From positions 23,640,001 through 23,704,000 of the forward strand of contig NC_092312.1 of the NCBI RefSeq assembly GCF_036785885.1: a DNA stretch of 64,000 nt. The letters run 5' to 3'. Of this stretch, positions 1 to 51,502 are shown piece after piece. The stretch is from Coffea arabica. Lineage: Eukaryota; Streptophyta; Magnoliopsida; Gentianales; Rubiaceae. Both the position numbers and the translations under genes were made by a program. Positions within the stretch are counted from its first letter, which is position 1; the number at the start of each line of letters is the position of its first letter. The notes below the pieces were generated by a model. The model worked only from the letters and a program-made list of their open reading frames with translations. It was not told the DNA's origin and did not search any database.

Positions 1-810
1 AAGAAGAACAGAAAGACGGCGTGTAACGGAGAGAAAGAGAGGGTAGAGGAGTTTTGTATGTGAGGAGTAGGTCCGTCATAAATGTTGTCCGAGGGAATAA
101 GTTGAGGGTTTTATCCAAAATCTCCTAATTTGTTCGGGAATGGGATAAGTCCTATTTTTTAGAAATGATTCCAAAAATTGCATTCCAATAGGTTTAACCC
201 AAGCAACAAATAAGGGGTTTATTCCATTCTGTGATTCCCAAACCCTTTAACTAAACAGCCCCCTAGTTTTTCAAGTATAACACTAGAGTAAAATCTATCC
301 CAAAAACACTTCAAATAAATCTCAAATACTTCTAATAAAAATATTAAAAAATAGAAAAAAAAAACCACCACCTTTTTCTTCCCCCACCATTGCCATTCCC
401 TCCCTCTTCCTCCTCCTTTCCCTCTCCTTCAACCTCTCTCCTCCGTCCTCCATCCTCTTCTCCCCTTCCCCCCTCCTTCCCCCTGCTCCTCCTCCTTTTT
501 GTGACTAGATTTGCTTATGGTGCCTAACCAACCTGGGTAGGAGTGGGGTTGGGGGATAAAGAGGGAGAAGGAAGCAGCGTAGGGAAAGAGAAGGAGGAGA
601 GGGAGGAATAGTAAATAATTTTAAAATGTCCCAAAAAAGTCTAAATTTTAAAACACTCTAAAATAAAATTATATAGTCCATACAGGACTATATAATAGTA
701 AATAAAATTTTTTTTGGAAAGGCACCCTAAAAAATATTTAGTCCATACAGGACTCCAGTTTTGGGGATCCTCCTCCATCCTTTAACATCCTGATGGATGA
801 TGGCTAATAA
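1..810. other. Left flank, no gene: pyrimidine/purine tracts and small hairpins
   Basis: No coding region is supported. About 365-500 is almost pure C/T on this strand, and about 535-610 is almost pure G/A, so the two can pair. An 11-bp perfect hairpin (TTATATAGTCC, loop ATACA) lies at 669-695, and part of it is repeated near 741-757. The stretch around 215-275 (AAACAGCCCC) resembles the end of a Tourist/hAT-like MITE, but no matching second end was defined. The mirror copy is 40919-41728. Confidence 0.5.
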
Positions 811-1488
811 GAGGGGTGGCAATTTCCGACACGATCTGAAAACACGACACGAATCTAGCACGAAATTAATGAGTTTGGGTTGAGGTTTCGCAGGTTTGAG
901 TCAAAATTAGGTCGAACCCGATGGACCCGAAAAGAAAACGAGTCGAATTTGGGTCAACCCGTGGATGACCCGATAACCTGTTTAAGAATTAAAAATAATT
1001 TAATAAACTTAAAAATTATTTTATCTAACTAAACTAAGTTATTCTTTTTTTCCAAATGCATTAATTACTTAATCCTAAATGAATTTATTTAACTTGTGTG
1101 AGATTGAAATTATTATATTTGGATAAATAATGCATTATAATTATTTTTTACTTTTATACAGTTTTAATTTATTTTATATTTGGTTCGGGATAAAACTCTT
1201 TTACAGTGTTTTAATTTATTTTAGATTTGGTTTGGGATTATTTATTTAAATTTTTGTTACTTGATTATGTAATTAGTCTTGTACGAAATTTGTTTTATTA
1301 GAAATTACAGTGATAAATTAATAAATTAAAATTAAATTCGGGTCATTTCGGGTCGACCCACCAACCCGAAATTTTCGGGTTCGTGTCAGATATTCTGACC
1401 CGTTTCGGGTTGGCAAGTCAGGTTCGGATCAGCGAGTTTTCTGTTATACCCGAGTCTCAACCCGAAACGGACTCGATTGCCACCCCTA
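811..1488. mobile_element. hAT-type MITE, 678 bp, with 8-bp TSD (left arm)
   Basis: The ends are near-identical inverted repeats: GAGGGGTGGCAAT at the left and ATTGCCACCCCTA at the right. The element is flanked by an exact 8-bp target site duplication, GCTAATAA, at 803-810 and 1489-1496. Eight-bp duplications are the hAT hallmark. The subterminal parts are rich in GGGTC/GACCC and CGGGT boxes and the middle is AT-rich. It has no transposase, so it is non-autonomous. A related sequence near 45600-45850 lacks the insertion, which supports the borders. Confidence 0.9.
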
Positions 1489-2861
1489 GCTAATAACCTC
1501 AATTCCACGTAGGACATGGATATCATAAATGAGAGGCATAACAATGGAGAACAAGTTGAGGAAATTTTGGGACTGGTTTCGGCAGGGTCCAGTGCTTCCA
1601 TAGAATTTTGGTACCAGACCGTCCTATGCGTTCCTTGTTTTACGGAATTTTGGGACCAGTTCGTTCCAAAATATGTAACTAAGTTGCAAGCATATGCTAA
1701 AGGTGTATATAGTATGTGAATTTATATTCACTAATTACTAATTTTGTTTAAGCATAAACAACTAAAACAATGCATATAAATTGCATATCAACATATTAGC
1801 GTATTATCCTTTATCATTGAAAGCAATCAAGTCATTTGGAGAATCATTGGATCTTGGTCTAATAACTAAGAAAAGCCTTTTTAAGCTCTCTTGTGCACTA
1901 AATTAAAGATTCAAACCCCACCTAATACATTACAAGGAAGTGTGTAGCTTTCTTGTTTTTTCAAAAAAAAATCAGAGAGTACAGCAGTGAACTTGTCTAA
2001 TCTGACGGTTCATCCTGCACCTCTGATACGTTTCTGTAGACTTCTCCTCTCGCATAATATAGGTTAATGTAGAAGTAGATTAGAAGTTGCTACTAATGAC
2101 AAAAAAAAAAGAAAAAAAAAAGACATTTGGAGGAGGGGTCAGGACTGGGTCAGGACGATTCGGGAAGAGAGAGTGCAAGTTTGGTGTGGTGATAATTTAT
2201 ATTAAATAGTTAAAATAATTTTCACTTTGCATGATATTTTTTTGCCAACGGGTTGGAACACGTGAATCAAAATTGGCGATGAGTAGGTCCGAATGAACCC
2301 TCTCTCTTCACTCAAGGTTATCTCATAATTGAAGAGCATCCTAGTGTGAACTTAGGCTTAAAAAAATGGCTTATGCAAATTTGATGAATAAGAAAGAGTC
2401 CACTTGTACATCCTTGGGGATGCACAATTTTGGAGTAAATATATTGAGCCCGACATATCTTTGTACGTTTCCATCACGGTTGCGTGAAGATTGCATTCTT
2501 TTTCTGGATGTTGCTGCGGTATGTTTACATGTCAAAACAGAGGTGTAGAAAGTTAACGGAAAAGACATTCAAGCATTTTTGGCCACAAACGGTAGGGGAA
2601 GTGTGTTGGGCGGGCACGTGGAAAGGGCTTTTGTGACGTGCAACCGGAAGATCTATTGGGGGTTGAAGAGGACTCCAGCCGGGCATGCCAAATGTGGAGG
2701 GGCCGAAATTAAGCAACCGGGAAAGTGAGGGTTTGTACGCGAAAGTACGGCATGGAAAAAAGGCGCGAAGCTTACTGGATAAGCTAAAGAGTGCAGGCGT
2801 ATTAGAAAGGAAAAAGCGCCAAAACCTGAGCAGGAGGAATAGCAGAAGATAGGGATTTGTT
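1489..2861. other. Non-coding flank upstream of first Ulp1-like gene
   Basis: No gene is supported, only short open frames. 1500-1720 holds GGGACCAGT-type repeats that recur near 45370-45480 and 51360-51470. About 2165-2250 recurs at about 44935-45010. An A-rich run lies at 2101-2122. From about 2270 the sequence is not seen outside the arms, so the gene-carrying segment may begin here. The last 500 bp would contain the promoter and 5' UTR of the gene at 2862. Mirror: 38868-40240. Confidence 0.45.
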
Positions 2862-5800
2862 ATGGAGCTGGCGGCGGAAATAGATGCTTCGGAGATGCAG
2901 TGGGACAGTGAAGGAGAAAGCGAAAATGTAGTATCGCCGATGCATCAGAGTGGAACACCTTCGAATTTTAAAAGTTGCAGCAGTGAACGGAAGGCCATTC
3001 GTCGGACGGCGGAAACAATGGTAGTATCGCTGATGCATGAGAGTGGAACACCTTCGAATTATAAACGTTGCAGCAGTGAAAGGAAGGCCATTCGTCGGAC
3101 GGCGGAAACAATGGTAAGCCACTCAACTCATTCCGTGAAGAATATGGTGGATTGGATCTCGGATGAGCAGCGGCAGGCTGTCAGAGAGTTTGGATTCGGG
3201 TCAATTTTGAATGTGAAGGGAGTAGAGGTTGACGAAGAGATGTTGAAGTGGCTGGTGGATAACTTTGATGTAGATCGGAGGACACTGAACGTTCATGGGT
3301 ACTGTCTACAGGTGACAGCGGAGGATGTGGAATGTGTACTTGGTTTGAGCAGCCGTGGGAAAGATATTGAAAGCGAAAAGCGAAGGCAAGAGATGGATAC
3401 AGAGTTGGAAAGAGAATTGAATATCAGAATAAATAGCGGTGAAATTGTAGTGGAGGAATTGAGGCACAGTATATGTAGTTTGCATAACGAAGGCTTAGAA
3501 TTCAAAGTGAAGTTCGTATTGTTTGTTGTTGGTAGGTTGTTAGCACCAAGTTTGGATGACAAAGTGAGCCGGGCTCTGGTGGCTGTAGTGGCTACAGAGG
3601 AGAATATGGAAAATTTGAACTGGTCGAAATTCATACTTGACAATTTGGTGAAGAGCATCCGTGATAGAGACGGCAACGGAATAGCGGGATGTGCACTTTT
3701 CTTGATGGTATAAGAAAGACGCACCATTTTGTATTAGAGATAGGAATTACTGGAATAATGAAATTAAACTTTGATAGAAAAGACCCGTAAATGATGGTAG
3801 GCGTTTTTGTCCGTGCAGATTTACTATCTGGAACGATTCTATATCGAGGGTGAGGACGAGTTTCGCAAGTTCCAGCCGAGAGGGCCGAGGCTAAGATTTT
3901 GGGGAAGGTACGAGATTAATGAAAGCGTGCGAATATTGAGGAGGAATCACATATTTGAGGGGGAACAGGTAATGTAAAATCCTTTCGTGTGAATTGTTGT
4001 TGAAATTGCAATCTGCATTTTGTGACGTTACTAGTAGTACAAAACTGAAGGGTTGTAGTGACAGGGCAATGTGCAGTTTTACAATAACATAAGCTGTAGA
4101 GAAGACATTGATAGAAGACTGATTGAAATTGAATGTGGTAATAAAGATGTGAAGGATAGTATTGGTAGAATGGAAGCAATGATTGAATGTCGTTTTGAAA
4201 GGCTGAGGAGCATGTATGAAAGTGGAAGGGTGTGCAAAACAAACCGGGCACTTGGTGTGGAGGGTGGGCAGAAGGACGATTGGCGCGGTAATGTTAAAAG
4301 AGGGAGTGAGTTACATAAATTGAGTCCTACAACGCCAGATGTTAGGTCCAAAAGCAGGAGTGAAAATGATAGAGTCACTACGAATAGTACTGTAATGGGT
4401 GAAAAGAGTGCATCGAAAATTACAAAGTGGAGGAGTAGAAAGAGACTAAGGATGGACAATACGGAGAAGCCTGTGGGGGAAGACAAACAAAACAGAAGGC
4501 AAGGTAAAAGAATAAAGGTATGGATCGGTTTGTGCCAAGGTATTTGTAGCATTAGAAAAGTAAAGTATAAATTGTAGTTTTATGTACAGATGGATAGCAG
4601 TGTGATGAACAAGTGTCAAACGAAGATCGTTGCTTTATTGGCAAAGGTGAGTATTCCAACGTTCCAGAATTACTAAAGTATGGGAAATTATAGACAATGA
4701 AAGATGACATATTTTTGTGGTAGCAGGAAACGAGGCTAGCATCTATCGGGGGAAAATTGAGTGAGGGACGAGCAAAAATACTGAAGTTCTTGTTTGACAC
4801 TCAGCTGTCGCAAGGGTATGTACTGGATCATGGATTTGTTAAATCAACAGTTCTATTTTGTTTTATCCTTTATTTGAAATTGCAATGGGAAAGGGGACAG
4901 AAAAGTATTTGCAATTATAAGGTTGACTAAATATGTAGTATGATTATCCCCATAGGGGAGAGGGCATAGGAACGAAAATCTTCGAAGCAGTTAAAATTGG
5001 TTTACAAGTGAGCACAAAACTTACAATTTGTGTGCTGTCAATCATGCCACCTTTATATAAAAAGCAAGGGTAGGTAACATGGTTGCATATAGAATAAAAG
5101 GTGAGTATTCCAGAAGTTTGAGAATGGAAGTACAATGAAAACTCAATGACCCTTATGGTGAGTACATAACCGCCTTAGGCTAACTGAATGACCCTAAGGA
5201 CCGATTGAGTCATTGAAACCGTGATTGCTGGTTGTATTAGTGAGGAAGACCGAACCTAGTCTGGCCGTTTTCACTCGAGTCATTGAAAATGATGATATCA
5301 AGTTTGTAGATTATGAAACCGTAATACACATAGGGAAAACATTAATGTACGCTGTTGTAATGACAGGGAAGTACTGGTGTCAATTAAGGGGCAGACAGCA
5401 AGTCGGGATGCAATGGGGTCGTTGCTTCCTGAAAAACCCATGGCATGTGATGTGAGTAAATCGAGGGATTGAAATTGGGTGGTGTTGTGTGGACTGTTTC
5501 ACGGAGGACGAAGTGATGTGACTTGAGTTTGGTGCAGATAATCAATTGCTATTGTGCGATGAAAACAGCGCGGCAGCAAAGGCGTCCTGACGATCAGTCA
5601 ATGCGATGGTGGTTCATGCCAACTTGGTTTCAGGTACAAGTGTTCGGCCAAAGTTGGGGGCTTGTGAGTACGTACATTCATATTGAAATGTCATATTTTA
5701 CTGTCGTGTTGTAGCAAGAGATTTTGGAGTTCAACAAATCAGCAGACGAGCTGTACTGTACATATCTACAGGAATGTAAAGTAGGAGGTAATATAAAAAA

Positions 5801-6642
5801 GTGTGAGAAGGTACGAGCAGCTGCCCTGTTATGTAGCATAATGGAATAGATACAGATTGCCATGATGATGACTAACTAACCGCTGCTATGCTTCAGATAT
5901 TCGTGCCAATGTGGCACGATGAGCATTGGTATATGTGTGTGGTGGACATGGGAAGCGAAGAAGTATTAATTTATGATTCATTGAGAGGAGACGAGCAAAC
6001 GGAAATGAATAGGCGCAGCTCCGTGGAGACAGTGGTAAACTAAGTTGGTTTGTCAAACATTTCATGAACACGACCATCACCTTTACAATTGGTGGCAGTA
6101 AACTTAAAATTGGATATGTTTTTCTTGTATGGCCGTCAGATTGAAAGGTTGGAAGCAGCGCTGACTTATGGTTTGGAGGGGCAGTATTCGTCATGCCTTT
6201 GGCTGTACAAAATAAAAGCTGCAGCCACATGTCCACAGCAACGGAATGCGTAAGTTGCATGTGCATAGGTTTGGAAGTTTTTTCCATAGTTCAGCAACGG
6301 TTGTCTAAAAATGTGGTTATGGTTTGTAATGCAGGTGGGATTGTGGGTTATTGATGCTGAAGTACATGGATATGTTATCAAGTGGAATTGGAAGCTGGAA
6401 ATGGAATCAGGTAAGGAAAAAGGAATGGCGTCGTATGCTGTAACAGTAAGTGTGTATGCTTGCATTGGTTGCGAACGATGGAGATAGTAACAAATTTATC
6501 GGTGCAGTACAATTCGGAGCAGGAGCGGCGCAAAGTAGCACTGTCTTTGGTTCTGGATGATGCCAACGTTGTCCGTCATGAAATTATGCGGAAAGCGAAC
6601 ACGCACAGGAGGTTGGAGATGAATAAAGTTGAGGTTCGATGA
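2862..6642 (+). CDS. Ulp1-family (C48) cysteine protease, multi-exon, left arm
   Basis: Likely a SUMO/Ulp1-type cysteine peptidase carried by a mobile element. Exons that join in frame: 2862-3707, 3819-3968, 4065-4517, 4590-4646, 4727-4815, 4956-5007, an uncertain one ending about 5449, 5538-5633, 5715-5810, 5897-6034, 6140-6249, 6335-6410 and 6508-6642. The total is over 760 codons. The catalytic set is complete: His in DEHWY and Asp in IYDSL (exon 5897-6034), Gln in PQQRN, and Cys in WDCGL, created exactly by splicing 6249 to 6335. INCYCAM (5538 on) is also typical of the family. The N-terminal exon resembles the region before Ulp1 domains in plant element proteins and contains a 31-codon tandem duplication (2928-3113). 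4065-4517 is charged and basic. The start is the first ATG of the long open frame. Intact splice sites argue for recent function. The substrate is unknown. Confidence 0.8.
2928..3113 (+). repeat. 93-bp in-frame tandem duplication in Ulp1-like exon 1
   Basis: Units 2928-3020 and 3021-3113 differ at only a few bases and each encode 31 residues containing SGTPSN and SSERKAIRRTAET. The duplication keeps the frame. Mirror: 38616-38801. Confidence 0.9.
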
Positions 6643-7204
6643 AGGTGGCAAGATAGAGAGACAAAGTAGCGGCATTTTGTGGAAAGGGCCATGTTTTAGG
6701 CGGTGTCATAGTCGGATGGACGTCGTCGTAGCCTAAAATGTAGAAGACGGAGAGAGAGAGTCCAAAAGCTGCCATAGCAAGGCAAGCGGTTGGTGTGTAT
6801 CCATGAGTTTCATTAGAGGAAGGGAAAGCAAAGTTCAACCGAGCAAACTCGCCGGTGGTGGTGCGGGGAGACCTTGCCATGGGGATAACGAGTACCACAA
6901 TCTTCATGTGGTCGAGAGTTAAGAGAAGATTTGTGGGTGGTTATGAGTAGCGTACAGTGATCCATGGTATGCAGTCATTAGAAATAAATGAAAAAAGATT
7001 GAAATATTTGATTTGTGGTAATTAAAGTTATGTATCGCGAGAGTTTATGAATTAGGTGTCTTGACGTATCCGAAACAATTTGTCTTAACACGGACTTTTA
7101 ACCTGCAATAGGTTAGTTTCTTGCTTTGCATTCTATGGTAACGGGTAAATGACACTCAAGTATAATATCGATCCGATTTTATCGAACAAATAAAGTGGCC
7201 ATAC
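6643..7204. other. Intergenic, 3' of Ulp1-like gene
   Basis: A 107-codon minus-strand frame (6584-6907) overlaps the end of the Ulp1-like gene in antisense. It has one hydrophobic stretch and no recognised domain, so I do not call it a gene. The rest is AT-rich and should hold the 3' UTR and polyadenylation signals. Mirror: 34525-35086. Confidence 0.4.
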
Positions 7205-8500
7205 ATAGCTGGTGTTTTATTGCAAACCGTGTTCAATTAAATTTTATCCGATAAGTGAATTAGTAAGTATGGCATATTGGTACTCTGTCTCATAGCGGAG
7301 GAAATCGATAAAGAGCCGGTGTTTTATTGGAAAAGGGGTTTTACTAGAGAACTGATTGATAAATAAATGTATTAATGGAAAAATGGGTGCATTGTTCTTA
7401 TAATGGAGGAAGGTAATAAAGAGCTGGCCTTTTATGGGAAAGTGATACATTACGGAAGTGACCGCTATTTGGTTTATGAAATTATCCGAAAATATTTAGA
7501 ATTAGTTTATTTATTTATATAAAAAATTATAATATACATTTTAGTATAATTTACTGATTGATTTTAATTTTATTGGATAAAAAAATTGTTTTATGGAAAA
7601 GGGTACTCTGTTGTTATACTGGAGAAAAGCCATGAAAAGCTGGGGTTTTATTGCAAAACGAGTTATCATATATTTTATCCGATAAATGAATCTATTAATG
7701 GAAAAATGGGTGCATTGTTCTTATAATGGAGGAAGGTAATAAAGAGCTGGCCTTTTATGGCAAAGTGATACATTACGGAAGTGACCGCTATTTGGTTTAT
7801 GAAATTATCCCAAAAAATTTAGAATTAGTTAATTTATTTATATAAAAAATTATAATATACATTTTAGTATAATTTACTGATTGATTTTAATTTTATTGGA
7901 TATAAAAATTGTTTTATGGAAAAGGGTACTCTGTTGTTATATTGGAGAAAAGCCATAAAAAGCTGGGGTTTTATTGCAAAACGAGCTATCATATATTTTA
8001 TCCGATAAATGAATCTAGTAATGGAAAAATGGGTGCATTGTTCTTATAATGGAGGAAGGTAATAAAGAGCTGGCCTTTTATGGGAAAGTGATACATTACG
8101 GAAGTGACCGCTATTTGGTTTATGAAATTATCCCAACAAATTTAGAATTAGTTAATTTATTTATATAAAAAATTATAATATACATTTTAGTATAATTTAC
8201 TGATTGATTTTAATTTTATTGGATAAAAAAATTGTTTTATGGAAAAGGGTACTCTGTTGTTATATTGGAGAAAAGCCATAAAAAGCTGGGGTTTTATTGC
8301 AAAACGAGCTATCATATATTTTATCCGATAAATGAATCTATTAATGGAAAAATGGGTGCATTGTTCTTATAATGGAGGAAGGTAATAAAGAGCTGGCCTT
8401 TTATGGGAAAGTGATACATTACGGAAGTGACCGCTATTTGGTTTATGAAATTATCCCAAAAAAATTAGAATTAGTTAATTTATTTATATAAAAAATTATA
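7205..8500. repeat. 323-bp tandem array built from ATAAAGAGCTGG motif units (left arm)
   Basis: The landmark GGGTGCATTG starts at about 7385, 7708, 8031 and 8354, a regular 323-bp period over four units, preceded by a degenerate partial unit. Each unit holds two related half-blocks, one with CATAAAAAGCTGGGGTTTTA and one with AATAAAGAGCTGGCCTTTTA, plus TTATCCGATAAATGAAT and an AT-rich tail. The units are almost identical, so the amplification is recent. It separates the convergent genes ending at 6642 and 9508. Confidence 0.92.
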
Positions 8501-9507
8501 ATATATTTTTATTTAATACACTGTGTAATTGTACTAATATTTTTTATAATTCTAGAGAATATTATATATTAATAAGTATAATTTTTAGTATATATTACTA
8601 TATTATACATAACAAATATAATTATATAATATATTATTACTACATACACATATATATTATAAATATATGGACATATATATTTGCATGATGGGAAACATCT
8701 GTGCCTGCGTCATGTGCATCCCTTCAATAACGTATTCCAATTTGTACAACGAATGCATCAATACAGGCCCAGAAATGTATTGTAAGTTGTCCAAGCCTGT
8801 CAGCAGCATAGACATCCCCATTAAAAAGTGAGGCAATCTTAAGCTCCTAGTCCAGCAGCTAATTTTCCCTATCGAAGTACATATTCAACCAGGGGTTAGC
8901 TAAAGGAATACATTACTCATACAGACTTCGTGTTGGGTTTGAAGATTCCATTGGTGGACTTTATTTTGGTACAGACGCAAAGCAAGGTGCCTAGCTGAAT
9001 TAATGTCAACCATTGCTCCTTGACCAACTGTTAGTATTGCACGTATCCGAGAGGTTAACCAGACGGGCAGATTTAGTGAATTGCATTGTTGTTAATGTTT
9101 AGACGATAAGTTGCCAACAAACAATTAGAATGAGAACAGGCTAAACTTACTACATGCCAATGTGGTCTGAAGTATATGGCTGACGCATCCTGCATTTGAC
9201 AGCAATTACAAATTTTATCTGATAATTTTTCCTCATGTGCATTCGGGAACCTGCATACAACATACGTCATTCCCAACTTCGACATTTTTAGAATTTGCAT
9301 AAAAAAACTCAGCGATGGCCCTTTGCAAACAAAAACAGAAGGGAAGAAAGTAGTACCAACATATATGAATTAGACAGACCCAGTGTCTGACTAAAGCACA
9401 AAAGTTTTTAACCTGTGTGTCCCATCAGAAGATAGGTTCTCTCCTTCCAATGGTTTGGAGAAGCTTCCGTACAGTGAACGGCCCATAAACTGATCTTCCT
9501 CATGCTT
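8501..9507. other. AT-rich tract and downstream region of FCP1-like gene
   Basis: 8501-8680 is almost pure A/T with TATA-type runs. It resembles 14470-14700 in layout (motif array followed by AT tract). 8690-9507 is of mixed composition. On the minus strand it contains splice-like signals and open frames (9073-9300 and 9408-9515) that could be alternative 3' exons or the UTR of the phosphatase gene, but no domain is recognised. Mirror: 32219-33225. Confidence 0.4.
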
Positions 9508-10788
9508 TCAAATTTTCCTTTTTTTCTTGGTCTGCGCATATGATCAGACGCAATTTTAGCTATCAAAAAAACGAAATGAACTATTGTCAACATAGTCCTG
9601 AACATGAATGCATCTAAATACCTCCGGAGGATATATGTTTGGGGCTTCCCGTTTGCGCGTCACTTGCTTTGCTGTGTTCTGCAGTCCAAGCTTGCTGACA
9701 ACATTAACATAAAAGTTCCAATCCACACTGCCTTCTGTTACGGGTGATTGTCCAAAACGGTTTTGCTTAATGAAATCTTGTACATTATCAGCACGGGCCA
9801 ATTTCTTCAGGTGTCCTACAAAATCTCCTTCAGGATCTGCAAATAAGTTTTGTGTCAGGCCAATCTTTGAACGGATGTTCTTCCGTAGCAAAAGCCACAT
9901 TTCAAAGCCAAAAAGACCAGGTCTTACCCAAATAATTGTCTTCTACAGTGTAACATGTATAAGAGGTGGGGAAGATGGCATTGTACGGCTGAAGAACGAG
10001 TAATATGGAAACAGTTAGGCCTGATCATGTTGTTTGTGCATACTGGAACATATACAACATAACGATCAGTTCCCGTATGGTGCACTTACAGAATTAAGGA
10101 CGGATTTATACGGAGAATCATCGACTAATATCGTGTTAGAGCTGTTGTACGACTTATATTCTCCCCACACACGTTTCAGGTCCTTAAACATCACCGTTTT
10201 GTCTGGATTTTCCCTAAGCCTGGTTTGTGTCATAGTGCACCGCGACTGATCCTGCACAATATTGATTGTTCCCGACTTTGATTTATCAGAAGTCTTACAC
10301 ACGGACTGACTACACACAATCGAAGTAATTTGTGAATGACATCTCACCCAAACAAATAACAGTCTCTGCTCCAAACGTTCATTCATTTTTTTGGATAGAC
10401 TGTCCAACACTGGTTGAATGTTGTGGCTGCAGAAAACACAACTGTCTTGAATTAAGGGAACAACACAAAAACTTGTGGACGTTCTAGTTAATCAAGTAAT
10501 TGAAATATAGGTTGGCGGATACCTTAGCTTTGATGACCAAACAGCGACCTCAAAATATGACAGACAGACCTGCAAAAATTCACGGCAATGTGGTCTGAAG
10601 TTAAAGTCCCGATTTCTGGTCATCCTTGTAAATGCACTGCCCAGAAGCACTCCATTCAAATCAAGAATAAGAAGCTTCTTCTTTGAATCATTGCTGGACG
10701 CAAGTTCTGGCGGGTTTTTTTTCACCCTTGTACCTTCGGCTGGGGAAAAAATGAAGGCATACAGCATTTCAGCACATGGATTGTGCAT
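9508..10788 (-). CDS. Plant FCP1-like HAD phosphatase, left arm
   Basis: Member of the plant HAD family related to the RNA polymerase II CTD phosphatase FCP1/NIF. Six exons join in frame to about 268 aa: 10523-10788, 10348-10426, 10090-10251, 9928-9988, 9622-9836 and 9508-9531. Motif I reads LLILDLNGVLLGS, where the second Asp of the classical DxD is Asn; I recall this as usual in the plant DLNG subfamily and it may lower catalysis. Motif II-like VAVWSSKL, motif III-like ILVDDSPYKS and the C-terminal FGQSPVT / WNFY features follow. The protein ends in a basic KKKRK cluster, a possible nuclear signal. A splice acceptor-like TTTCCCCAG just inside the ATG exon suggests the true first exon may lie further upstream. 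An alternative last-exon frame (9408-9515) is open. Confidence 0.75.
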
Positions 10789-10873
10789 GTGAGATCAAAT
10801 TTGAATGTCATAATGAGAAATCAAACAAGAGGAAATGGAAAGTGTAAAGCAAAGTTCTGGGGCCGAGGATTTA

Positions 10874-13642: not shown

Positions 13643-13760
13643 GTTACTGCCTATGCTTGCTCCGGGATGCGATTCAATTGTTGAGTACTTTGAGCAACAG
13701 AGGAAGCGAACGCGATAAATCTACTTCTTCTTCGACCTTGCCGCGAAAAACTTTTCGAAA

Positions 13761-14445
13761 AGCTCCAAATTTCAGAAAGGGGGGGGAAAGCTTTAACCGA
13801 AACTGTTAAGTGTGTTTACACAACAACGGAGCTTTTGATGGGCTAAACAGGAGAAACGATGAGAAGTTCACGAAAGACAAGCTTTTTGTGGGATAATTGA
13901 TGAGGCGGGGACGGGCGTGGAGGGGAGGCAAACCCGATTTACATATTCGAAAATCAACCCGTTTCGGTATTGGAGCGTGTATTCGAATCGGGTTATGCGC
14001 AAGCCAAATAACTTTGGCAGCAGATTACAATCTATATAATAACAAATGTAATTATGCTTTTATATAATTAATTAATATTATATACACATATATTATAAGG
14101 GATACCCTCAGAAACCTCCCCCGAATGTCCTTATGGAAAAATCATGAAATGGATAATTTATGGACGATAGCCAAAAAGAGCTCCCGTTTTATTCAACAAC
14201 TTGTTTATTTTCATTTCATCCGATAAATAAATTTGTTTACGCAAAAATGGGTACTCTTTTCTTATAATAAAGGAGAGCCATAAAGAGCATCACTTTTATT
14301 GTAAATCGCGTTTATTTTTTATATTATCCGATAAATATATTTATTTCTGGAAAAAAGGGTACTCTGTTATTATAATGCAGGAAGACCATAAAGAGCTGGT
14401 CTTTTACTACAAAGTGATACTTTACAGACTGGGACCACCATTTGG
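13761..14445. repeat. Upstream module, copy 1 (left arm)
   Basis: About 685 bp, roughly 85-90% alike by eye to 17049-17739 in the same orientation. Order: G-run, GATGGGCTAAACAGGA, ACAAGCTTTTTGTGGGATAA, CAACCCGTTTCGGTA, AT tract, CTCAGAAACCTCCCCCGAAT, then three ATAAAGAGC-type motif units. It begins 119 bp upstream of the ATG of the minus-strand Ulp1-like gene at 13642, so it probably carries that gene's promoter. Mirror: 27281-27965. Confidence 0.85.
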
Positions 14446-14890: not shown

Positions 14891-15211
14891 AGTAAATTGT
14901 TTTGCAGTATCTAATCAACCACCATTTCGTTTGTACTTAGTAAACTTCTCACTTCACTACAGTATCCGTCACGTAGATCACTGCTGAGGAGTTCCCTCTT
15001 TACCTTCTAACTATCATCCTTTATTCTTACATTTCATACACGTTTGTCTACAACGGCGTTTTGTCGAGAAAATGTCAGAACATACAAGGGCCAAGATAAG
15101 CTGTTTATGTTTTCATACCAGTAGTATTAAGAGAGTAAGAAGTAGCGGTCAATTCAGTTGGCAAACATAAAAAAAGCGTAACGATGTGTTGTCAACATTC
15201 AATCTTACACA

Positions 15212-27965: not shown

Positions 27966-28083
27966 TTTCGAAAAGTTTTTCGCGGCAAGGTCGAAGAAGA
28001 AGTAGATTTATCGCGTTCGCTTCCTCTGTTGCTCAAAGTACTCAACAATTGAATCGCATCCCGGAGCAAGCATAGGCAGTAAC

Positions 28084-30852: not shown

Positions 30853-30937
30853 TAAATCCTCGGCCCCAGAACTTTGCTTTACACTTTCCATTTCCTCTTG
30901 TTTGATTTCTCATTATGACATTCAAATTTGATCTCAC

Positions 30938-32218
30938 ATGCACAATCCATGTGCTGAAATGCTGTATGCCTTCATTTTTTCCCCAGCCGAAGGTACAAGG
31001 GTGAAAAAAAACCCGCCAGAACTTGCGTCCAGCAATGATTCAAAGAAGAAGCTTCTTATTCTTGATTTGAATGGAGTGCTTCTGGGCAGTGCATTTACAA
31101 GGATGACCAGAAATCGGGACTTTAACTTCAGACCACATTGCCGTGAATTTTTGCAGGTCTGTCTGTCATATTTTGAGGTCGCTGTTTGGTCATCAAAGCT
31201 AAGGTATCCGCCAACCTATATTTCAATTACTTGATTAACTAGAACGTCCACAAGTTTTTGTGTTGTTCCCTTAATTCAAGACAGTTGTGTTTTCTGCAGC
31301 CACAACATTCAACCAGTGTTGGACAGTCTATCCAAAAAAATGAATGAACGTTTGGAGCAGAGACTGTTATTTGTTTGGGTGAGATGTCATTCACAAATTA
31401 CTTCGATTGTGTGTAGTCAGTCCGTGTGTAAGACTTCTGATAAATCAAAGTCGGGAACAATCAATATTGTGCAGGATCAGTCGCGGTGCACTATGACACA
31501 AACCAGGCTTAGGGAAAATCCAGACAAAACGGTGATGTTTAAGGACCTGAAACGTGTGTGGGGAGAATATAAGTCGTACAACAGCTCTAACACGATATTA
31601 GTCGATGATTCTCCGTATAAATCCGTCCTTAATTCTGTAAGTGCACCATACGGGAACTGATCGTTATGTTGTATATGTTCCAGTATGCACAAACAACATG
31701 ATCAGGCCTAACTGTTTCCATATTACTCGTTCTTCAGCCGTACAATGCCATCTTCCCCACCTCTTATACATGTTACACTGTAGAAGACAATTATTTGGGT
31801 AAGACCTGGTCTTTTTGGCTTTGAAATGTGGCTTTTGCTACGGAAGAACATCCGTTCAAAGATTGGCCTGACACAAAACTTATTTGCAGATCCTGAAGGA
31901 GATTTTGTAGGACACCTGAAGAAATTGGCCCGTGCTGATAATGTACAAGATTTCATTAAGCAAAACCGTTTTGGACAATCACCCGTAACAGAAGGCAGTG
32001 TGGATTGGAACTTTTATGTTAATGTTGTCAGCAAGCTTGGACTGCAGAACACAGCAAAGCAAGTGACGCGCAAACGGGAAGCCCCAAACATATATCCTCC
32101 GGAGGTATTTAGATGCATTCATGTTCAGGACTATGTTGACAATAGTTCATTTCGTTTTTTTGATAGCTAAAATTGCGTCTGATCATATGCGCAGACCAAG
32201 AAAAAAAGGAAAATTTGA
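30938..32218 (+). CDS. Plant FCP1-like HAD phosphatase, mirror copy
   Basis: Inverted copy of 9508-10788. Exons: 30938-31203, 31300-31378, 31475-31636, 31738-31798, 31890-32104 and 32195-32218. DLNGVL and VDDSPYKS are intact, as in the left copy. Confidence 0.75.
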
Positions 32219-33225
32219 AAGCATGAGGAAGATCAGTTTATGGGCCGTTCACTGTACGGAAGCTTCTCCAAACCATTGGAAGGAGAGAACCTATCTTCTG
32301 ATGGGACACACAGGTTAAAAACTTTTGTGCTTTAGTCAGACACTGGGTCTGTCTAATTCATATATGTTGGTACTACTTTCTTCCCTTCTGTTTTTGTTTG
32401 CAAAGGGCCATCGCTGAGTTTTTTTATGCAAATTCTAAAAATGTCGAAGTTGGGAATGACGTATGTTGTATGCAGGTTCCCGAATGCACATGAGGAAAAA
32501 TTATCAGATAAAATTTGTAATTGCTGTCAAATGCAGGATGCGTCAGCCATATACTTCAGACCACATTGGCATGTAGTAAGTTTAGCCTGTTCTCATTCTA
32601 ATTGTTTGTTGGCAACTTATCGTCTAAACATTAACAACAATGCAATTCACTAAATCTGCCCGTCTGGTTAACCTCTCGGATACGTGCAATACTAACAGTT
32701 GGTCAGGGAGCAATGGTTGACATTAATTCAGCTAGGCTCCTTGCTTTGCGTCTGTACCAAAATAAAGTCCACCAATGGAATCTTCAAACCCAACACGAAG
32801 TCTGTATGAGTAATGTATTCCTTTAGCTAACCCCTGGTTGAATATGTACTTCGATAGGGAAAATTAGCTGCTGGACTAGGAGCTTAAGATTGCCTCACTT
32901 TTTAATGGGGATGTCTATGCTGCTGACAGGCTTGGACAACTTACAATACATTTCTGGGCCTGTATTGATGCATTCGTTGTACAAATTGGAATACGTTATT
33001 GAAGGGATGCACATGACGCAGGCACAGATGTTTCCCATCATGCAAATATATATGTCCATATATTTATAATATATATGTGTATGTAGTAATAATATATTAT
33101 ATAATTATATTTGTTATGTATAATATAGTAATATATACTAAAAATTATACTTATTAATATATAATATTCTCTAGAATTATAAAAAATATTAGTACAATTA
33201 CACAGTGTATTAAATAAAAATATAT

Positions 33226-34524
33226 TATAATTTTTTATATAAATAAATTAACTAATTCTAAATTTTTTGGGATAATTTCATAAACCAAATAGCGGTCACT
33301 TCCGTAATGTATCACTTTCCCATAAAAGGCCAGCTCTTTATTACCTTCCTCCATTATAAGAACAATGCACCCATTTTTCCATTAATAGATTCATTTATCG
33401 GATAAAATATATGATAGCTCGTTTTGCAATAAAACCCCAGCTTTTTATGGCTTTTCTCCAATATAACAACAGAGTACCCTTTTCCATAAAACAATTTTTT
33501 TATCCAATAAAATTAAAATCAATCAGTAAATTATACTAAAATGTATATTATAATTTTTTATATAAATAAATTAACTAATTCTAAATTTTTTGGGATAATT
33601 TCATAAACCAAATAGCGGTCACTTCCGTAATGTATCACTTTCCCATAAAAGGCCAGCTCTTTATTACCTTCCTCCATTATAAGAACAATGCACCCATTTT
33701 TCCATTAATAGATTCATTTATCGGATAAAATATATGATAGCTCGTTTTGCAATAAAACCCCAGCTTTTTATGGCTTTTCTCCAATATAACAACAGAGTAC
33801 CCTTTTCCATAAAACAATTTTTATATCCAATAAAATTAAAATCAATCAGTAAATTATACTAAAATGTATATTATAATTTTTTATATAAATAAATTAACTA
33901 ATTCTAAATTTTTTGGGATAATTTCATAAACCAAATAGCGGTCACTTCCGTAATGTATCACTTTGCCATAAAAGGCCAGCTCTTTATTACCTTCCTCCAT
34001 TATAAGAACAATGCACCCATTTTTCCATTAATAGATTCATTTATCGGATAAAATATATGATAACTCGTTTTGCAATAAAACCCCAGCTTTTCATGGCTTT
34101 TCTCCAGTATAACAACAGAGTACCCTTTTCCATAAAACAATTTTTTTATCCAATAAAATTAAAATCAATCAGTAAATTATACTAAAATGTATATTATAAT
34201 TTTTTATATAAATAAATAAACTAATTCTAAATATTTTCGGGTCATAATTTCATAAACCAAATAGCGGTCACTTCCGTAATGTATCACTTTCCCATAAAAG
34301 GCCAGCTCTTTATTACCTTCCTCCATTATAAGAACAATGCACCCATTTTTCCATTAATACATTTATTTATCAATCAGTTCTCTAGTAAAACCCCTTTTCC
34401 AATAAAACACCGGCTCTTTATCGATTTCCTCCGCTATGAGACAGAGTACCAATATGCCATACTTACTAATTCACTTATCGGATAAAATTTAATTGAACAC
34501 GGTTTGCAATAAAACACCAGCTAT
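33226..34524. repeat. 323-bp tandem array, mirror copy (right arm)
   Basis: Inverted copy of 7205-8500, 3 bp longer because of the GTC insertion at 34241-34243. Confidence 0.92.
34241..34243. other. 3-bp insertion, only arm difference noticed
   Basis: The right arm reads TTTTCGG-GTC-ATAATTTC. The left arm counterpart (between 7485 and 7486) lacks the three bases. It lies at the edge of the 323-bp tandem array. It shows that the arms are not literally the same reads copied, or it is a local sequencing error. Confidence 0.85.
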
Positions 34525-35086
34525 GTATGGCCACTTTATTTGTTCGATAAAATCGGATCGATATTATACTTGAGTGTCATTTACCCGTTACCATAGAATG
34601 CAAAGCAAGAAACTAACCTATTGCAGGTTAAAAGTCCGTGTTAAGACAAATTGTTTCGGATACGTCAAGACACCTAATTCATAAACTCTCGCGATACATA
34701 ACTTTAATTACCACAAATCAAATATTTCAATCTTTTTTCATTTATTTCTAATGACTGCATACCATGGATCACTGTACGCTACTCATAACCACCCACAAAT
34801 CTTCTCTTAACTCTCGACCACATGAAGATTGTGGTACTCGTTATCCCCATGGCAAGGTCTCCCCGCACCACCACCGGCGAGTTTGCTCGGTTGAACTTTG
34901 CTTTCCCTTCCTCTAATGAAACTCATGGATACACACCAACCGCTTGCCTTGCTATGGCAGCTTTTGGACTCTCTCTCTCCGTCTTCTACATTTTAGGCTA
35001 CGACGACGTCCATCCGACTATGACACCGCCTAAAACATGGCCCTTTCCACAAAATGCCGCTACTTTGTCTCTCTATCTTGCCACCT

Positions 35087-38000
35087 TCATCGAACCTCAA
35101 CTTTATTCATCTCCAACCTCCTGTGCGTGTTCGCTTTCCGCATAATTTCATGACGGACAACGTTGGCATCATCCAGAACCAAAGACAGTGCTACTTTGCG
35201 CCGCTCCTGCTCCGAATTGTACTGCACCGATAAATTTGTTACTATCTCCATCGTTCGCAACCAATGCAAGCATACACACTTACTGTTACAGCATACGACG
35301 CCATTCCTTTTTCCTTACCTGATTCCATTTCCAGCTTCCAATTCCACTTGATAACATATCCATGTACTTCAGCATCAATAACCCACAATCCCACCTGCAT
35401 TACAAACCATAACCACATTTTTAGACAACCGTTGCTGAACTATGGAAAAAACTTCCAAACCTATGCACATGCAACTTACGCATTCCGTTGCTGTGGACAT
35501 GTGGCTGCAGCTTTTATTTTGTACAGCCAAAGGCATGACGAATACTGCCCCTCCAAACCATAAGTCAGCGCTGCTTCCAACCTTTCAATCTGACGGCCAT
35601 ACAAGAAAAACATATCCAATTTTAAGTTTACTGCCACCAATTGTAAAGGTGATGGTCGTGTTCATGAAATGTTTGACAAACCAACTTAGTTTACCACTGT
35701 CTCCACGGAGCTGCGCCTATTCATTTCCGTTTGCTCGTCTCCTCTCAATGAATCATAAATTAATACTTCTTCGCTTCCCATGTCCACCACACACATATAC
35801 CAATGCTCATCGTGCCACATTGGCACGAATATCTGAAGCATAGCAGCGGTTAGTTAGTCATCATCATGGCAATCTGTATCTATTCCATTATGCTACATAA
35901 CAGGGCAGCTGCTCGTACCTTCTCACACTTTTTTATATTACCTCCTACTTTACATTCCTGTAGATATGTACAGTACAGCTCGTCTGCTGATTTGTTGAAC
36001 TCCAAAATCTCTTGCTACAACACGACAGTAAAATATGACATTTCAATATGAATGTACGTACTCACAAGCCCCCAACTTTGGCCGAACACTTGTACCTGAA
36101 ACCAAGTTGGCATGAACCACCATCGCATTGACTGATCGTCAGGACGCCTTTGCTGCCGCGCTGTTTTCATCGCACAATAGCAATTGATTATCTGCACCAA
36201 ACTCAAGTCACATCACTTCGTCCTCCGTGAAACAGTCCACACAACACCACCCAATTTCAATCCCTCGATTTACTCACATCACATGCCATGGGTTTTTCAG
36301 GAAGCAACGACCCCATTGCATCCCGACTTGCTGTCTGCCCCTTAATTGACACCAGTACTTCCCTGTCATTACAACAGCGTACATTAATGTTTTCCCTATG
36401 TGTATTACGGTTTCATAATCTACAAACTTGATATCATCATTTTCAATGACTCGAGTGAAAACGGCCAGACTAGGTTCGGTCTTCCTCACTAATACAACCA
36501 GCAATCACGGTTTCAATGACTCAATCGGTCCTTAGGGTCATTCAGTTAGCCTAAGGCGGTTATGTACTCACCATAAGGGTCATTGAGTTTTCATTGTACT
36601 TCCATTCTCAAACTTCTGGAATACTCACCTTTTATTCTATATGCAACCATGTTACCTACCCTTGCTTTTTATATAAAGGTGGCATGATTGACAGCACACA
36701 AATTGTAAGTTTTGTGCTCACTTGTAAACCAATTTTAACTGCTTCGAAGATTTTCGTTCCTATGCCCTCTCCCCTATGGGGATAATCATACTACATATTT
36801 AGTCAACCTTATAATTGCAAATACTTTTCTGTCCCCTTTCCCATTGCAATTTCAAATAAAGGATAAAACAAAATAGAACTGTTGATTTAACAAATCCATG
36901 ATCCAGTACATACCCTTGCGACAGCTGAGTGTCAAACAAGAACTTCAGTATTTTTGCTCGTCCCTCACTCAATTTTCCCCCGATAGATGCTAGCCTCGTT
37001 TCCTGCTACCACAAAAATATGTCATCTTTCATTGTCTATAATTTCCCATACTTTAGTAATTCTGGAACGTTGGAATACTCACCTTTGCCAATAAAGCAAC
37101 GATCTTCGTTTGACACTTGTTCATCACACTGCTATCCATCTGTACATAAAACTACAATTTATACTTTACTTTTCTAATGCTACAAATACCTTGGCACAAA
37201 CCGATCCATACCTTTATTCTTTTACCTTGCCTTCTGTTTTGTTTGTCTTCCCCCACAGGCTTCTCCGTATTGTCCATCCTTAGTCTCTTTCTACTCCTCC
37301 ACTTTGTAATTTTCGATGCACTCTTTTCACCCATTACAGTACTATTCGTAGTGACTCTATCATTTTCACTCCTGCTTTTGGACCTAACATCTGGCGTTGT
37401 AGGACTCAATTTATGTAACTCACTCCCTCTTTTAACATTACCGCGCCAATCGTCCTTCTGCCCACCCTCCACACCAAGTGCCCGGTTTGTTTTGCACACC
37501 CTTCCACTTTCATACATGCTCCTCAGCCTTTCAAAACGACATTCAATCATTGCTTCCATTCTACCAATACTATCCTTCACATCTTTATTACCACATTCAA
37601 TTTCAATCAGTCTTCTATCAATGTCTTCTCTACAGCTTATGTTATTGTAAAACTGCACATTGCCCTGTCACTACAACCCTTCAGTTTTGTACTACTAGTA
37701 ACGTCACAAAATGCAGATTGCAATTTCAACAACAATTCACACGAAAGGATTTTACATTACCTGTTCCCCCTCAAATATGTGATTCCTCCTCAATATTCGC
37801 ACGCTTTCATTAATCTCGTACCTTCCCCAAAATCTTAGCCTCGGCCCTCTCGGCTGGAACTTGCGAAACTCGTCCTCACCCTCGATATAGAATCGTTCCA
37901 GATAGTAAATCTGCACGGACAAAAACGCCTACCATCATTTACGGGTCTTTTCTATCAAAGTTTAATTTCATTATTCCAGTAATTCCTATCTCTAATACAA

Positions 38001-38867
38001 AATGGTGCGTCTTTCTTATACCATCAAGAAAAGTGCACATCCCGCTATTCCGTTGCCGTCTCTATCACGGATGCTCTTCACCAAATTGTCAAGTATGAAT
38101 TTCGACCAGTTCAAATTTTCCATATTCTCCTCTGTAGCCACTACAGCCACCAGAGCCCGGCTCACTTTGTCATCCAAACTTGGTGCTAACAACCTACCAA
38201 CAACAAACAATACGAACTTCACTTTGAATTCTAAGCCTTCGTTATGCAAACTACATATACTGTGCCTCAATTCCTCCACTACAATTTCACCGCTATTTAT
38301 TCTGATATTCAATTCTCTTTCCAACTCTGTATCCATCTCTTGCCTTCGCTTTTCGCTTTCAATATCTTTCCCACGGCTGCTCAAACCAAGTACACATTCC
38401 ACATCCTCCGCTGTCACCTGTAGACAGTACCCATGAACGTTCAGTGTCCTCCGATCTACATCAAAGTTATCCACCAGCCACTTCAACATCTCTTCGTCAA
38501 CCTCTACTCCCTTCACATTCAAAATTGACCCGAATCCAAACTCTCTGACAGCCTGCCGCTGCTCATCCGAGATCCAATCCACCATATTCTTCACGGAATG
38601 AGTTGAGTGGCTTACCATTGTTTCCGCCGTCCGACGAATGGCCTTCCTTTCACTGCTGCAACGTTTATAATTCGAAGGTGTTCCACTCTCATGCATCAGC
38701 GATACTACCATTGTTTCCGCCGTCCGACGAATGGCCTTCCGTTCACTGCTGCAACTTTTAAAATTCGAAGGTGTTCCACTCTGATGCATCGGCGATACTA
38801 CATTTTCGCTTTCTCCTTCACTGTCCCACTGCATCTCCGAAGCATCTATTTCCGCCGCCAGCTCCAT
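35087..38867 (-). CDS. Ulp1-family (C48) cysteine protease, mirror copy
   Basis: Inverted copy of 2862-6642 with no difference seen. It has the same exon structure, with the ATG at 38865-38867 and the stop at 35087-35089. The same His, Asp, Gln and Cys positions are preserved, so both copies could be expressed. Being identical and opposed, their transcripts are sense and antisense only if transcription reads through the palindrome centre. Confidence 0.8.
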
Positions 38868-40240
38868 AACAAATCCCTATCTTCTGCTATTCCTCCTGCT
38901 CAGGTTTTGGCGCTTTTTCCTTTCTAATACGCCTGCACTCTTTAGCTTATCCAGTAAGCTTCGCGCCTTTTTTCCATGCCGTACTTTCGCGTACAAACCC
39001 TCACTTTCCCGGTTGCTTAATTTCGGCCCCTCCACATTTGGCATGCCCGGCTGGAGTCCTCTTCAACCCCCAATAGATCTTCCGGTTGCACGTCACAAAA
39101 GCCCTTTCCACGTGCCCGCCCAACACACTTCCCCTACCGTTTGTGGCCAAAAATGCTTGAATGTCTTTTCCGTTAACTTTCTACACCTCTGTTTTGACAT
39201 GTAAACATACCGCAGCAACATCCAGAAAAAGAATGCAATCTTCACGCAACCGTGATGGAAACGTACAAAGATATGTCGGGCTCAATATATTTACTCCAAA
39301 ATTGTGCATCCCCAAGGATGTACAAGTGGACTCTTTCTTATTCATCAAATTTGCATAAGCCATTTTTTTAAGCCTAAGTTCACACTAGGATGCTCTTCAA
39401 TTATGAGATAACCTTGAGTGAAGAGAGAGGGTTCATTCGGACCTACTCATCGCCAATTTTGATTCACGTGTTCCAACCCGTTGGCAAAAAAATATCATGC
39501 AAAGTGAAAATTATTTTAACTATTTAATATAAATTATCACCACACCAAACTTGCACTCTCTCTTCCCGAATCGTCCTGACCCAGTCCTGACCCCTCCTCC
39601 AAATGTCTTTTTTTTTTCTTTTTTTTTTGTCATTAGTAGCAACTTCTAATCTACTTCTACATTAACCTATATTATGCGAGAGGAGAAGTCTACAGAAACG
39701 TATCAGAGGTGCAGGATGAACCGTCAGATTAGACAAGTTCACTGCTGTACTCTCTGATTTTTTTTTGAAAAAACAAGAAAGCTACACACTTCCTTGTAAT
39801 GTATTAGGTGGGGTTTGAATCTTTAATTTAGTGCACAAGAGAGCTTAAAAAGGCTTTTCTTAGTTATTAGACCAAGATCCAATGATTCTCCAAATGACTT
39901 GATTGCTTTCAATGATAAAGGATAATACGCTAATATGTTGATATGCAATTTATATGCATTGTTTTAGTTGTTTATGCTTAAACAAAATTAGTAATTAGTG
40001 AATATAAATTCACATACTATATACACCTTTAGCATATGCTTGCAACTTAGTTACATATTTTGGAACGAACTGGTCCCAAAATTCCGTAAAACAAGGAACG
40101 CATAGGACGGTCTGGTACCAAAATTCTATGGAAGCACTGGACCCTGCCGAAACCAGTCCCAAAATTTCCTCAACTTGTTCTCCATTGTTATGCCTCTCAT
40201 TTATGATATCCATGTCCTACGTGGAATTGAGGTTATTAGC

Positions 40241-40918
40241 TAGGGGTGGCAATCGAGTCCGTTTCGGGTTGAGACTCGGGTATAACAGAAAACTCGCTGA
40301 TCCGAACCTGACTTGCCAACCCGAAACGGGTCAGAATATCTGACACGAACCCGAAAATTTCGGGTTGGTGGGTCGACCCGAAATGACCCGAATTTAATTT
40401 TAATTTATTAATTTATCACTGTAATTTCTAATAAAACAAATTTCGTACAAGACTAATTACATAATCAAGTAACAAAAATTTAAATAAATAATCCCAAACC
40501 AAATCTAAAATAAATTAAAACACTGTAAAAGAGTTTTATCCCGAACCAAATATAAAATAAATTAAAACTGTATAAAAGTAAAAAATAATTATAATGCATT
40601 ATTTATCCAAATATAATAATTTCAATCTCACACAAGTTAAATAAATTCATTTAGGATTAAGTAATTAATGCATTTGGAAAAAAAGAATAACTTAGTTTAG
40701 TTAGATAAAATAATTTTTAAGTTTATTAAATTATTTTTAATTCTTAAACAGGTTATCGGGTCATCCACGGGTTGACCCAAATTCGACTCGTTTTCTTTTC
40801 GGGTCCATCGGGTTCGACCTAATTTTGACTCAAACCTGCGAAACCTCAACCCAAACTCATTAATTTCGTGCTAGATTCGTGTCGTGTTTTCAGATCGTGT
40901 CGGAAATTGCCACCCCTC
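40241..40918. mobile_element. hAT-type MITE, mirror copy (right arm)
   Basis: Inverted copy of 811-1488, with the TSD TTATTAGC at 40233-40240 and 40919-40926. It was duplicated as a passenger of the palindrome rather than inserted independently, since the target site and sequence are identical. Confidence 0.9.
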
Positions 40919-41942
40919 TTATTAGCCATCATCCATCAGGATGTTAAAGGATGGAGGAGGATCCCCAAAACTGGAGTCCTGTATGGACTAAATATTTTTT
41001 AGGGTGCCTTTCCAAAAAAAATTTTATTTACTATTATATAGTCCTGTATGGACTATATAATTTTATTTTAGAGTGTTTTAAAATTTAGACTTTTTTGGGA
41101 CATTTTAAAATTATTTACTATTCCTCCCTCTCCTCCTTCTCTTTCCCTACGCTGCTTCCTTCTCCCTCTTTATCCCCCAACCCCACTCCTACCCAGGTTG
41201 GTTAGGCACCATAAGCAAATCTAGTCACAAAAAGGAGGAGGAGCAGGGGGAAGGAGGGGGGAAGGGGAGAAGAGGATGGAGGACGGAGGAGAGAGGTTGA
41301 AGGAGAGGGAAAGGAGGAGGAAGAGGGAGGGAATGGCAATGGTGGGGGAAGAAAAAGGTGGTGGTTTTTTTTTTCTATTTTTTAATATTTTTATTAGAAG
41401 TATTTGAGATTTATTTGAAGTGTTTTTGGGATAGATTTTACTCTAGTGTTATACTTGAAAAACTAGGGGGCTGTTTAGTTAAAGGGTTTGGGAATCACAG
41501 AATGGAATAAACCCCTTATTTGTTGCTTGGGTTAAACCTATTGGAATGCAATTTTTGGAATCATTTCTAAAAAATAGGACTTATCCCATTCCCGAACAAA
41601 TTAGGAGATTTTGGATAAAACCCTCAACTTATTCCCTCGGACAACATTTATGACGGACCTACTCCTCACATACAAAACTCCTCTACCCTCTCTTTCTCTC
41701 CGTTACACGCCGTCTTTCTGTTCTTCTTCTTCATCAGTTTTTCTATCTCTTCTTCTTCATCATATAGTCTTCATCTATAATCCAAAATCTCTTGAAAAAA
41801 AAAAGATCTAAATAGATTAATAGTGGGCAAATATTTTTAGTGGGCAAATTATTCAACAAGATCTCCACGAGAAAGATCTCTAAGAAAAATTGAAGAAAAC
41901 CCTCCACCCAAATTTCTCCTATAATTAATACTAAGGTAGAAT

Positions 41943-48380: not shown

Positions 48381-48515
48381 ATTAAATGGTAGTATGTTAC
48401 GGAGAGATCGGTGCATGCACTACAAAACATCAAAGTTCAGACGAGTTAGTACAAATTCTACTACTTAATATAAAGTAGTAAATTGGCACCGTTTATACAA
48501 GGAAAATTAAAACTG

Positions 48516-49617: not shown

Positions 49618-49671
49618 AACTGAAACAGGTTTGATTAATAAAGCTTGTTTTTGCCCTAATATTATTTGAAA

Positions 49672-51500: not shown

Positions 51501-51502
51501 TC

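Follow-up and report, generated by a model that had tools for sequence, protein, structure and literature searches.

The question raised by this locus of Coffea arabica is whether a very large palindrome in an assembled plant genome is genomic DNA and, if so, by which process it was made. The window, which is the whole stretch analysed (64,000 nucleotides, C3:23,640,001-23,704,000, where C3 is the 76.9-Mb contig NC_092312.1 of assembly GCF_036785885.1, a genome of 1,197,963,845 bases in 131 contigs), contains two inverted arms around a short spacer. The answer that we favour, with a probability of roughly 0.63, is that the palindrome is real genomic DNA and forms part of a young, replication-based insertion templated by more than one donor. 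Coordinates below 1 and above 64000 continue the window, and a genome position equals C3:23,640,000 plus the coordinate.

Self-BLAST of the window aligns 21129-41728 with the reverse complement of 1-20597 at 99.961% over 20,600 columns, and the near-perfect palindrome with a 531-bp spacer that was seen in a preliminary description of this DNA is thereby confirmed, as is its nuclear rather than plastid nature, the window lying within the 76.9-Mb contig and both arms carrying the plant small nucleolar RNA (snoRNA) snoR71. Positions 1 and 41728 are an effect of the window edge and not arm ends, the left arm running off the window. When 60 kb of flanking DNA on the left and 20 kb on the right are added, the arms extend over -7862..20597 and 21129..49591 (28,463 columns, 99.972%), and the arm length of 20.6 kb given earlier has to be replaced by 28.5 kb. 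The palindrome is present in the assembly, it is larger than the window shows, and its length is far beyond chance.

The palindrome is not self-contained. It occupies the centre of a 72.7-kb patchwork with two donor loci, and every piece of this patchwork has a twin elsewhere in the genome. As read directly in the assembly, the pieces follow each other in the order R'-H-A (inverted)-B-R (Table 1), with the inserted block of 8,994 + 28,991 + 34,708 = 72,693 bp, minus 3 bp shared at the last junction, lying between two copies of a recipient segment. Piece A differs from its donor by 7 substitutions and no indel over 28,991 bp, and piece B by 31 mismatches and 3 gaps over 34,709 columns (99.896%). 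Given these donor matches, the right arm and its flank keep the order of the donor, and the left arm is the additional copy, which is inverted. There are no differences between R and R' over 55834-68871, the only two differences of the aligned block, at 55832-55833, falling outside the segment. The matching loci on C20 and at C3:24.87-24.90 Mb are still present and are continuous past the copied stretches; the first 29 loci fetched (L001-L029) contain no N bases, later loci being outside this check. When 43000-47000 is used as the query, three places among the best 40 of 1,298 candidates match at 100% over the full length, and these are the donor, A and B. The other units found with this query are at C3:24.93-24.94 Mb (97-98%, in pieces) and at C4:25.16-25.29 Mb (92-98%), and C4 is therefore disfavoured as the donor over this stretch. 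These units show the donor to be a member of a tandem cluster. Around it, units of about 50-60 kb occur on both contigs of the pair, at C3:24.89-25.00 Mb and C4:25.15-25.33 Mb.

The arrangement without the block can be read on C4, which is probably the homoeologue of C3. For the left flank, C3:23,607,001-23,610,000, which lies close to the left end of R', a single long match elsewhere is found, C4:23,886,743-23,889,743 (99%, with all four candidates scored). The first 622 bp of R are found at C4:23,889,846-23,890,469 (96%), at a distance from the left flank that agrees with that on C3 within a few bases, and the right flank (C3:23,714,001 on) matches C4:23,891,287-23,892,924 (93%) and 23,895,729-23,896,896 (98%). 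On C4, then, the left flank is followed by the start of R and this by the right flank, and the block is lacking. From this arrangement it follows that the block is the derived state and that R' is the copy in its native left context.

The fold itself can be described to the base. An open reading frame (ORF), 20331-20984, crosses 20597/20598, and all four homologous proteins found among 148 candidates align across this position, so that the left spacer junction is native. When the spacer region is compared with the genome (901-base query, best 40 of 77 candidates scored), all 901 bases are matched by the window alone, and the 39 other scored places are contiguous at 20597/20598 and end at or before 21128; among these 40 places, the fold is carried by the window locus only. 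In the seven distinct other loci that were read, position 21128 is followed by GCCAAA(G/C)C (7/7), where the window has AACTTTGAAG, and as both parental sequences are known at the fold, zero shared bases can be counted there. That the fold is a transposon end, as suggested by three copies stopping at 21128, is ruled out by the continuation of all seven loci beyond this point.

Homology at the four junctions is 1 bp (T) from R' to H, 0 from H to A, 0 from A to B and 3 bp (GAG) from the donor flank to R, that is 1, 0, 0 and 3 bp versus the approximately 2-5 bp expected for microhomology-mediated break-induced replication (MMBIR) or fork stalling and template switching (FoSTeS). No junction is a long repeat that would let an assembler slip. 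This bears on the explanation by an assembly artefact, in which donor copies would have been joined between overlapping contig ends by folded or chimeric reads or by a path of the assembly graph that ran through repeated unitigs; the 13 kb shared by R and R' would be the overlap. Overlap assembly through repeats does not produce joins of 0-3 bp, and the distances from one of the four joins to the next are 9.0, 29.0 and 34.7 kb, which would call for at least three chimeric 20-kb molecules. It is nevertheless the case that every piece of the block is also present elsewhere, with 0 differences between R and R' and between H and C20, and that fold-back and chimeric reads are known artefacts (described in parts of PMC12870357 and PMC6218980). 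The first junction lies 147 bp into a long terminal repeat (LTR) and the last, J3, at the start of a GA microsatellite (55834-55856), and the two features that come closest to an unmerged contig overlap are this GA repeat and the 13 kb over which R and R' are identical. GA microsatellites are places at which both replication and HiFi coverage can fail.

The published Coffea arabica HiFi assembly, which is probably the one analysed here, was made with hifiasm from DNA sheared to 20 kb, has its data under PRJNA698600 and comprises 1,198 Mb in 22 pseudochromosomes, 132 scaffolds and 238 contigs (as given in part of PMC11018527); the longest run of B without a difference to the donor, 17.2 kb, is shorter than these fragments. 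In the PacBio HiFi sample of a 2026 study (PMC12870357), virtually no fold-backs are reported, and they are defined as turning within 200 bp, near the read centre; the fold here is offset by 531 bp. The arms of a fold-back read would be equal except for read errors. The differences between the arms here are not random read errors, as at four of the six sites A shares its state with a copy at C3:24.88 Mb, 1.2 Mb away, and this state is lacking in the copies on C10 and C7. A simple fold-back at a contig end is ruled out, the window lying at 23.64 Mb of its contig and the outer flanks of the palindrome being different, and a simple assembly fold-back in general is less likely because it leaves the C20 piece, the 13-kb re-entry duplication and the variants matching other genome copies unexplained. 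Taken as a whole, we consider an assembly artefact unlikely, although it is the strongest of the alternatives.

The preferred reading is a replicative one. The process would have started from a stalled or broken DNA end in a retrotransposon LTR at C3:23.62 Mb, with 9.0 kb copied from C20 and then 29.0 kb copied from C3, from 24.90 Mb downwards to 24.87 Mb. At a point within a Mutator-like element of 35 kb, copying would have turned without homology, skipping back 531 bp, after which 34.7 kb of the same donor would have been copied outwards. The recipient would then have been re-entered at the GAG/GA repeat, and as this lies 13 kb upstream of the point of exit, these 13 kb would have been left on both sides. 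The multi-donor order, the mixed orientation, the little or absent homology, the gain of copies and the partner site without the block are the reasons for which this pattern fits MMBIR or fork template switching of a chromoanasynthesis-like kind. We infer that the assembly is correct here, that the twins acted as donors and that they were copied by replication in one event. The fullest version of this reading, a natural, germline-borne chromoanasynthesis-like event in which a fork copied 73 kb from two chromosomes in one go, made a U-turn within a giant Mutator-like transposon, moved between templates that were nearly identical and came back into the recipient 13 kb behind the point at which it had left, stands at about even odds. 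The region C20:35,345,779-35,346,411, 867 bp from the end of H, is related, at 87-89%, to the outer end of arm A; the switch from C20 to C3 may have used related neighbourhoods.

The identical 13-kb segments on the two sides of the block also bear on the main in vivo rival, which predicts the same junctions as template switching and proceeds in two steps. An inverted duplication would have arisen at or from the donor by sister-chromatid fusion, fold-back priming or origin-dependent inverted-repeat amplification (ODIRA), perhaps giving an 85.7-kb circle R-H-A-B-flank, and homologous recombination in R at C3:23.6 Mb would then have left R on both sides. Direct 13-kb repeats are the expected remnant when a circle that has R in common with the site integrates. 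Published descriptions exist of inverted junctions that arise through fold-back or sister fusion and of dimeric inverted circles (in parts of PMC10622511 and PMC10766186), and six substitutions common to A and B point to one shared source. Such a circle must, however, already contain R and the C20 piece, so that several switches are still required. The junctions of yeast ODIRA, in the part of the published account that concerns them, have short inverted repeats 40-80 nt apart, with a centre that later rearrangement can widen, whereas the fold here is blunt, with 531 bp; no short inverted repeat is found at the turn (0 bp shared), although later rearrangement could have removed it. This two-step route is improbable, somewhat more so than a misassembly.

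The turn lies within the Mutator-like element, of which the two arms hold partial copies in opposite orientation. The full element measures approximately 35.3 kb (C3:24,850,793-24,886,123) or 35.6 kb (C10), its far end being known from two copies only. It is judged to be Mutator-like by its predicted transposase, a 482-residue part of an 823-residue ORF that matches the FAR1 and MULE transposase models, the other 340-residue part having no match to models; an ORF with a plant mobile domain is also inside the element. No convincing terminal inverted repeats of the 35-kb element are found in parts of three copies and one whole copy, and no 7-9 bp target-site duplication at the two copies examined. 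The element is long and recently active. Its central part has 39 other scored places at 91-100% identity (best 40 of 77 candidates). The doubled set of ordinary genes proposed in the preliminary description is not supported, as all 17 stop-to-stop ORFs of at least 120 aa in 1-20597, including Transposase_32 and a TPR_27 piece, sit inside this element; the ORF scan of the outer 10.4 kb of the arms covers the right side. It has to be considered that aberrant transposition of the element, involving sister chromatids or reversed ends, made the inverted duplication, as the fold is inside the element and maize Ac transposition of such a type can yield flanking inverted duplications (described in part of PMC3744419). 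None of the four junctions is at an element end (2505/6 or the far end), their positions being inside the element, in an LTR, in the flank and at the GA repeat, and this origin is very improbable.

Replicative template switching is also to be weighed against the differences among the copies. Where one 3-bp difference between the arms had been noticed, a base-by-base walk gives six, five substitutions and one 3-bp indel, all within 1,535 bp, a tightness reached in none of 200,000 random placements on a 28,463-bp arm. In this patch, 7486-9020, A agrees with the donor at five of the six sites and B at one, and B carries the C10/C7 type at 8018, 8137, 8464 and 9020. A had been considered the derived copy at the array differences, with repeat units unlike their neighbours, and this was replaced after comparison with other copies. 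Outside the patch, the six substitutions common to A and B, at 18024-20435, are absent from the donor and from the other readable copies. Within the flank, B and the donor differ in 23 columns of 51429-54807; transitions account for 17 of these, and in 15 of the transitions the window has A or T. The 17.2-kb run without differences between B and the donor is not reached in 20,000 uniform simulations. Within the arms, the clusters of differences fall in the Mutator-like element; the one in the flank overlaps with retrotransposon ORFs. These clusters would be gene conversion or copying from more than one near-identical template.

Several observations weigh against the preferred reading. The differences to the donor are clustered, which speaks against the simplest one-pass version, and the conflict between A and B is not given by one clean event, as they have six changes with respect to the donor in common and yet A sides with the donor in 7486-9020; conversion at a later time, or the use of several near-identical templates, would be required in addition. 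For the GAC indel, a 35-base word has no exact genome match outside arm B, so that no conversion donor is found. Junction homology of 0-3 bp cannot separate replication from end joining, and assemblies also break at places such as a GA microsatellite (J3) and an LTR (the first junction). On C4, only 0.8 kb is found where C3 has 17.5 kb including a retrotransposon, so that the exact insertion point, in the LTR, is unreadable there. The junctions are known from the assembly alone, and raw reads are needed to prove any of them in a molecule.

The insertion is apparently recent. Zero differences are found between the arms outside the patch (26.9 kb), between R and R' and between H and C20. The mutation rate of Arabidopsis is 7e-9 per site and generation. 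With this rate, 0 changes in about 98 kb of lineage give an age of at most approximately 4,400 generations, an upper bound that holds if there was no conversion. An old, homogenised palindrome was considered; the block is not found at the C4 partner site, and R and R' are identical though they are not palindrome arms. The lack of the block on C4 and the identity of R and R' point to youth, without dating it directly.

When compared with known systems, the locus resembles chromoanasynthesis, FoSTeS and MMBIR cases in its duplicated stretches from different loci, mixed orientation and 0-3 bp junctions (as described in part of PMC13393857). It is set apart from them in that its letters can be followed one by one through a plant assembly, where every piece has its matching locus and the partner site lacks the block; it is known from the assembly alone, with replication as the proposed mechanism. 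Plant filler DNA, or templated insertion at double-strand breaks, is similar in that foreign stretches are copied into a break; fillers at transposon excisions in rice are 1-123 bp long with a mean of 13 bp (in part of PMC4423477), and the 72.7-kb block, which is far larger, is a templated insertion in kind. A fold-back inversion likewise gives an inverted duplication whose short centre is single-copy and native to one of the arms, but here zero bases are shared at the turn and the outer ends are joined to other loci. The willow palindromes W.P1 and W.P2 are alike in arm size and in identity above 99% (as given in part of PMC7023750), and differ in that the palindrome here is part of an insertion whose donor is still present. 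With arms of about 20 kb and a W.P2 span of more than 165 kb (same source), they also lend no support to the idea that this palindrome is among the largest to be expected in a plant. No sex-linked gene is recognised among the ORFs tested. Among the papers listed in the literature searches, titles and abstract openings mention no such locus; these searches were not aimed at coffee, and the locus is not claimed to be unpublished.

If the replicative reading is true, repair by template hopping on the kilobase scale would, in plants, give rise to large palindromes and to segmental duplications at dispersed sites, and not to short filler DNA alone. If the junctions hold, this is a base-resolved complex plant rearrangement with its recipient, partner site, both donors, four junctions and copying order. 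It would link to one repair process three products that are mostly met with separately, namely large palindromes, segmental duplications at dispersed sites and direct duplications at the flanks. Typing of the exact junctions in a range of accessions could then date the event and show whether palindromes of this length persist. If they fail, the locus is a warning of chromosome-internal misassembly in a modern long-read assembly.

Table 1. Coordinates of the pieces, junctions, arm differences and other features (window coordinates unless a contig is named).
Feature	Position	Strand	Description
R', left copy of 13,038-bp recipient segment	-29894..-16857
Piece H	-16856..-7863		8,994 bp; = C20:35,347,279-35,356,272, 0 mismatches
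Piece A (left arm + spacer)	-7862..21128	-	copy of C3:24,896,491-24,867,501; begins at C3:23,632,138
Spacer	20598..21128		531 bp; donor's own continuation of arm A, absent from arm B
Piece B (right arm 21129-49591 + native flank 49592-55836)	21129..55836	+	copy of C3:24,868,032-24,902,736
R, right copy of 13,038-bp recipient segment	55834..68871	+
Fold junction J1	21128..21129		donor read to 21128, then backwards from the base matching 20597; 0 bp homology
Junction J3	55834..55836		donor flank to recipient at GAG, 3 bp shared; ATAACCGAG / ATAAGGGAG, 7/9
Genome positions of junctions	C3:23,623,143/4; 23,632,137/8; 23,661,128/9; 23,695,834-6
Patch with all six arm differences	7486..9020		mirror 32706-34243
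GAC indel between arms	7486/34243
Arm substitutions	8018/33708, 8137/33589, 8464/33262, 8988/32738, 9020/32706
Mutator-like element, first partial copy	2506..21128	+	cut by the fold at 21128; C10 and C7 copies start at 2505/2506
Mutator-like element, second partial copy, inverted	21129..39223	-
Mutator-like element, C10 copy	C10:5,462,425-5,498,059
snoR71, plant C/D snoRNA	47767..47873	+	mirror -6144..-6038; Rfam RF00097, 47.4 bits in both

Segment R holds an LTR retrotransposon. Its LTRs, 59727-62905 and 68725-71903, have 12 mismatches over 3,179 bp, it is bordered by ATAAT at either side, and its reverse transcriptase is recognised by eye; R' ends 147 bp inside the second LTR. At 58552-58935, R also has a fragment that matches the C-terminus of origin recognition complex subunit 5 (Pfam ORC5_C). 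The central ORF has no match in plasmid and viral-contig searches, with none of 41 pattern matches confirmed. A small element with inverted ends over 41728/41729, chosen by eye, has a score of 44 that is reached by 5 of 2,000 shuffles, and it is superseded by the true arm ends. In the outer arm, 41958-42281 is a fragment similar to a plant receptor kinase domain in its C-terminal part (matches to the PDB sequences of BAK1 and BRI1, E about 2e-8; no Pfam match at 0.001). An array of 323-bp units occupies 7279-8523, within the Mutator-like element, with related sequence at 13779-14445, 17068-17738 and 42329-42584.

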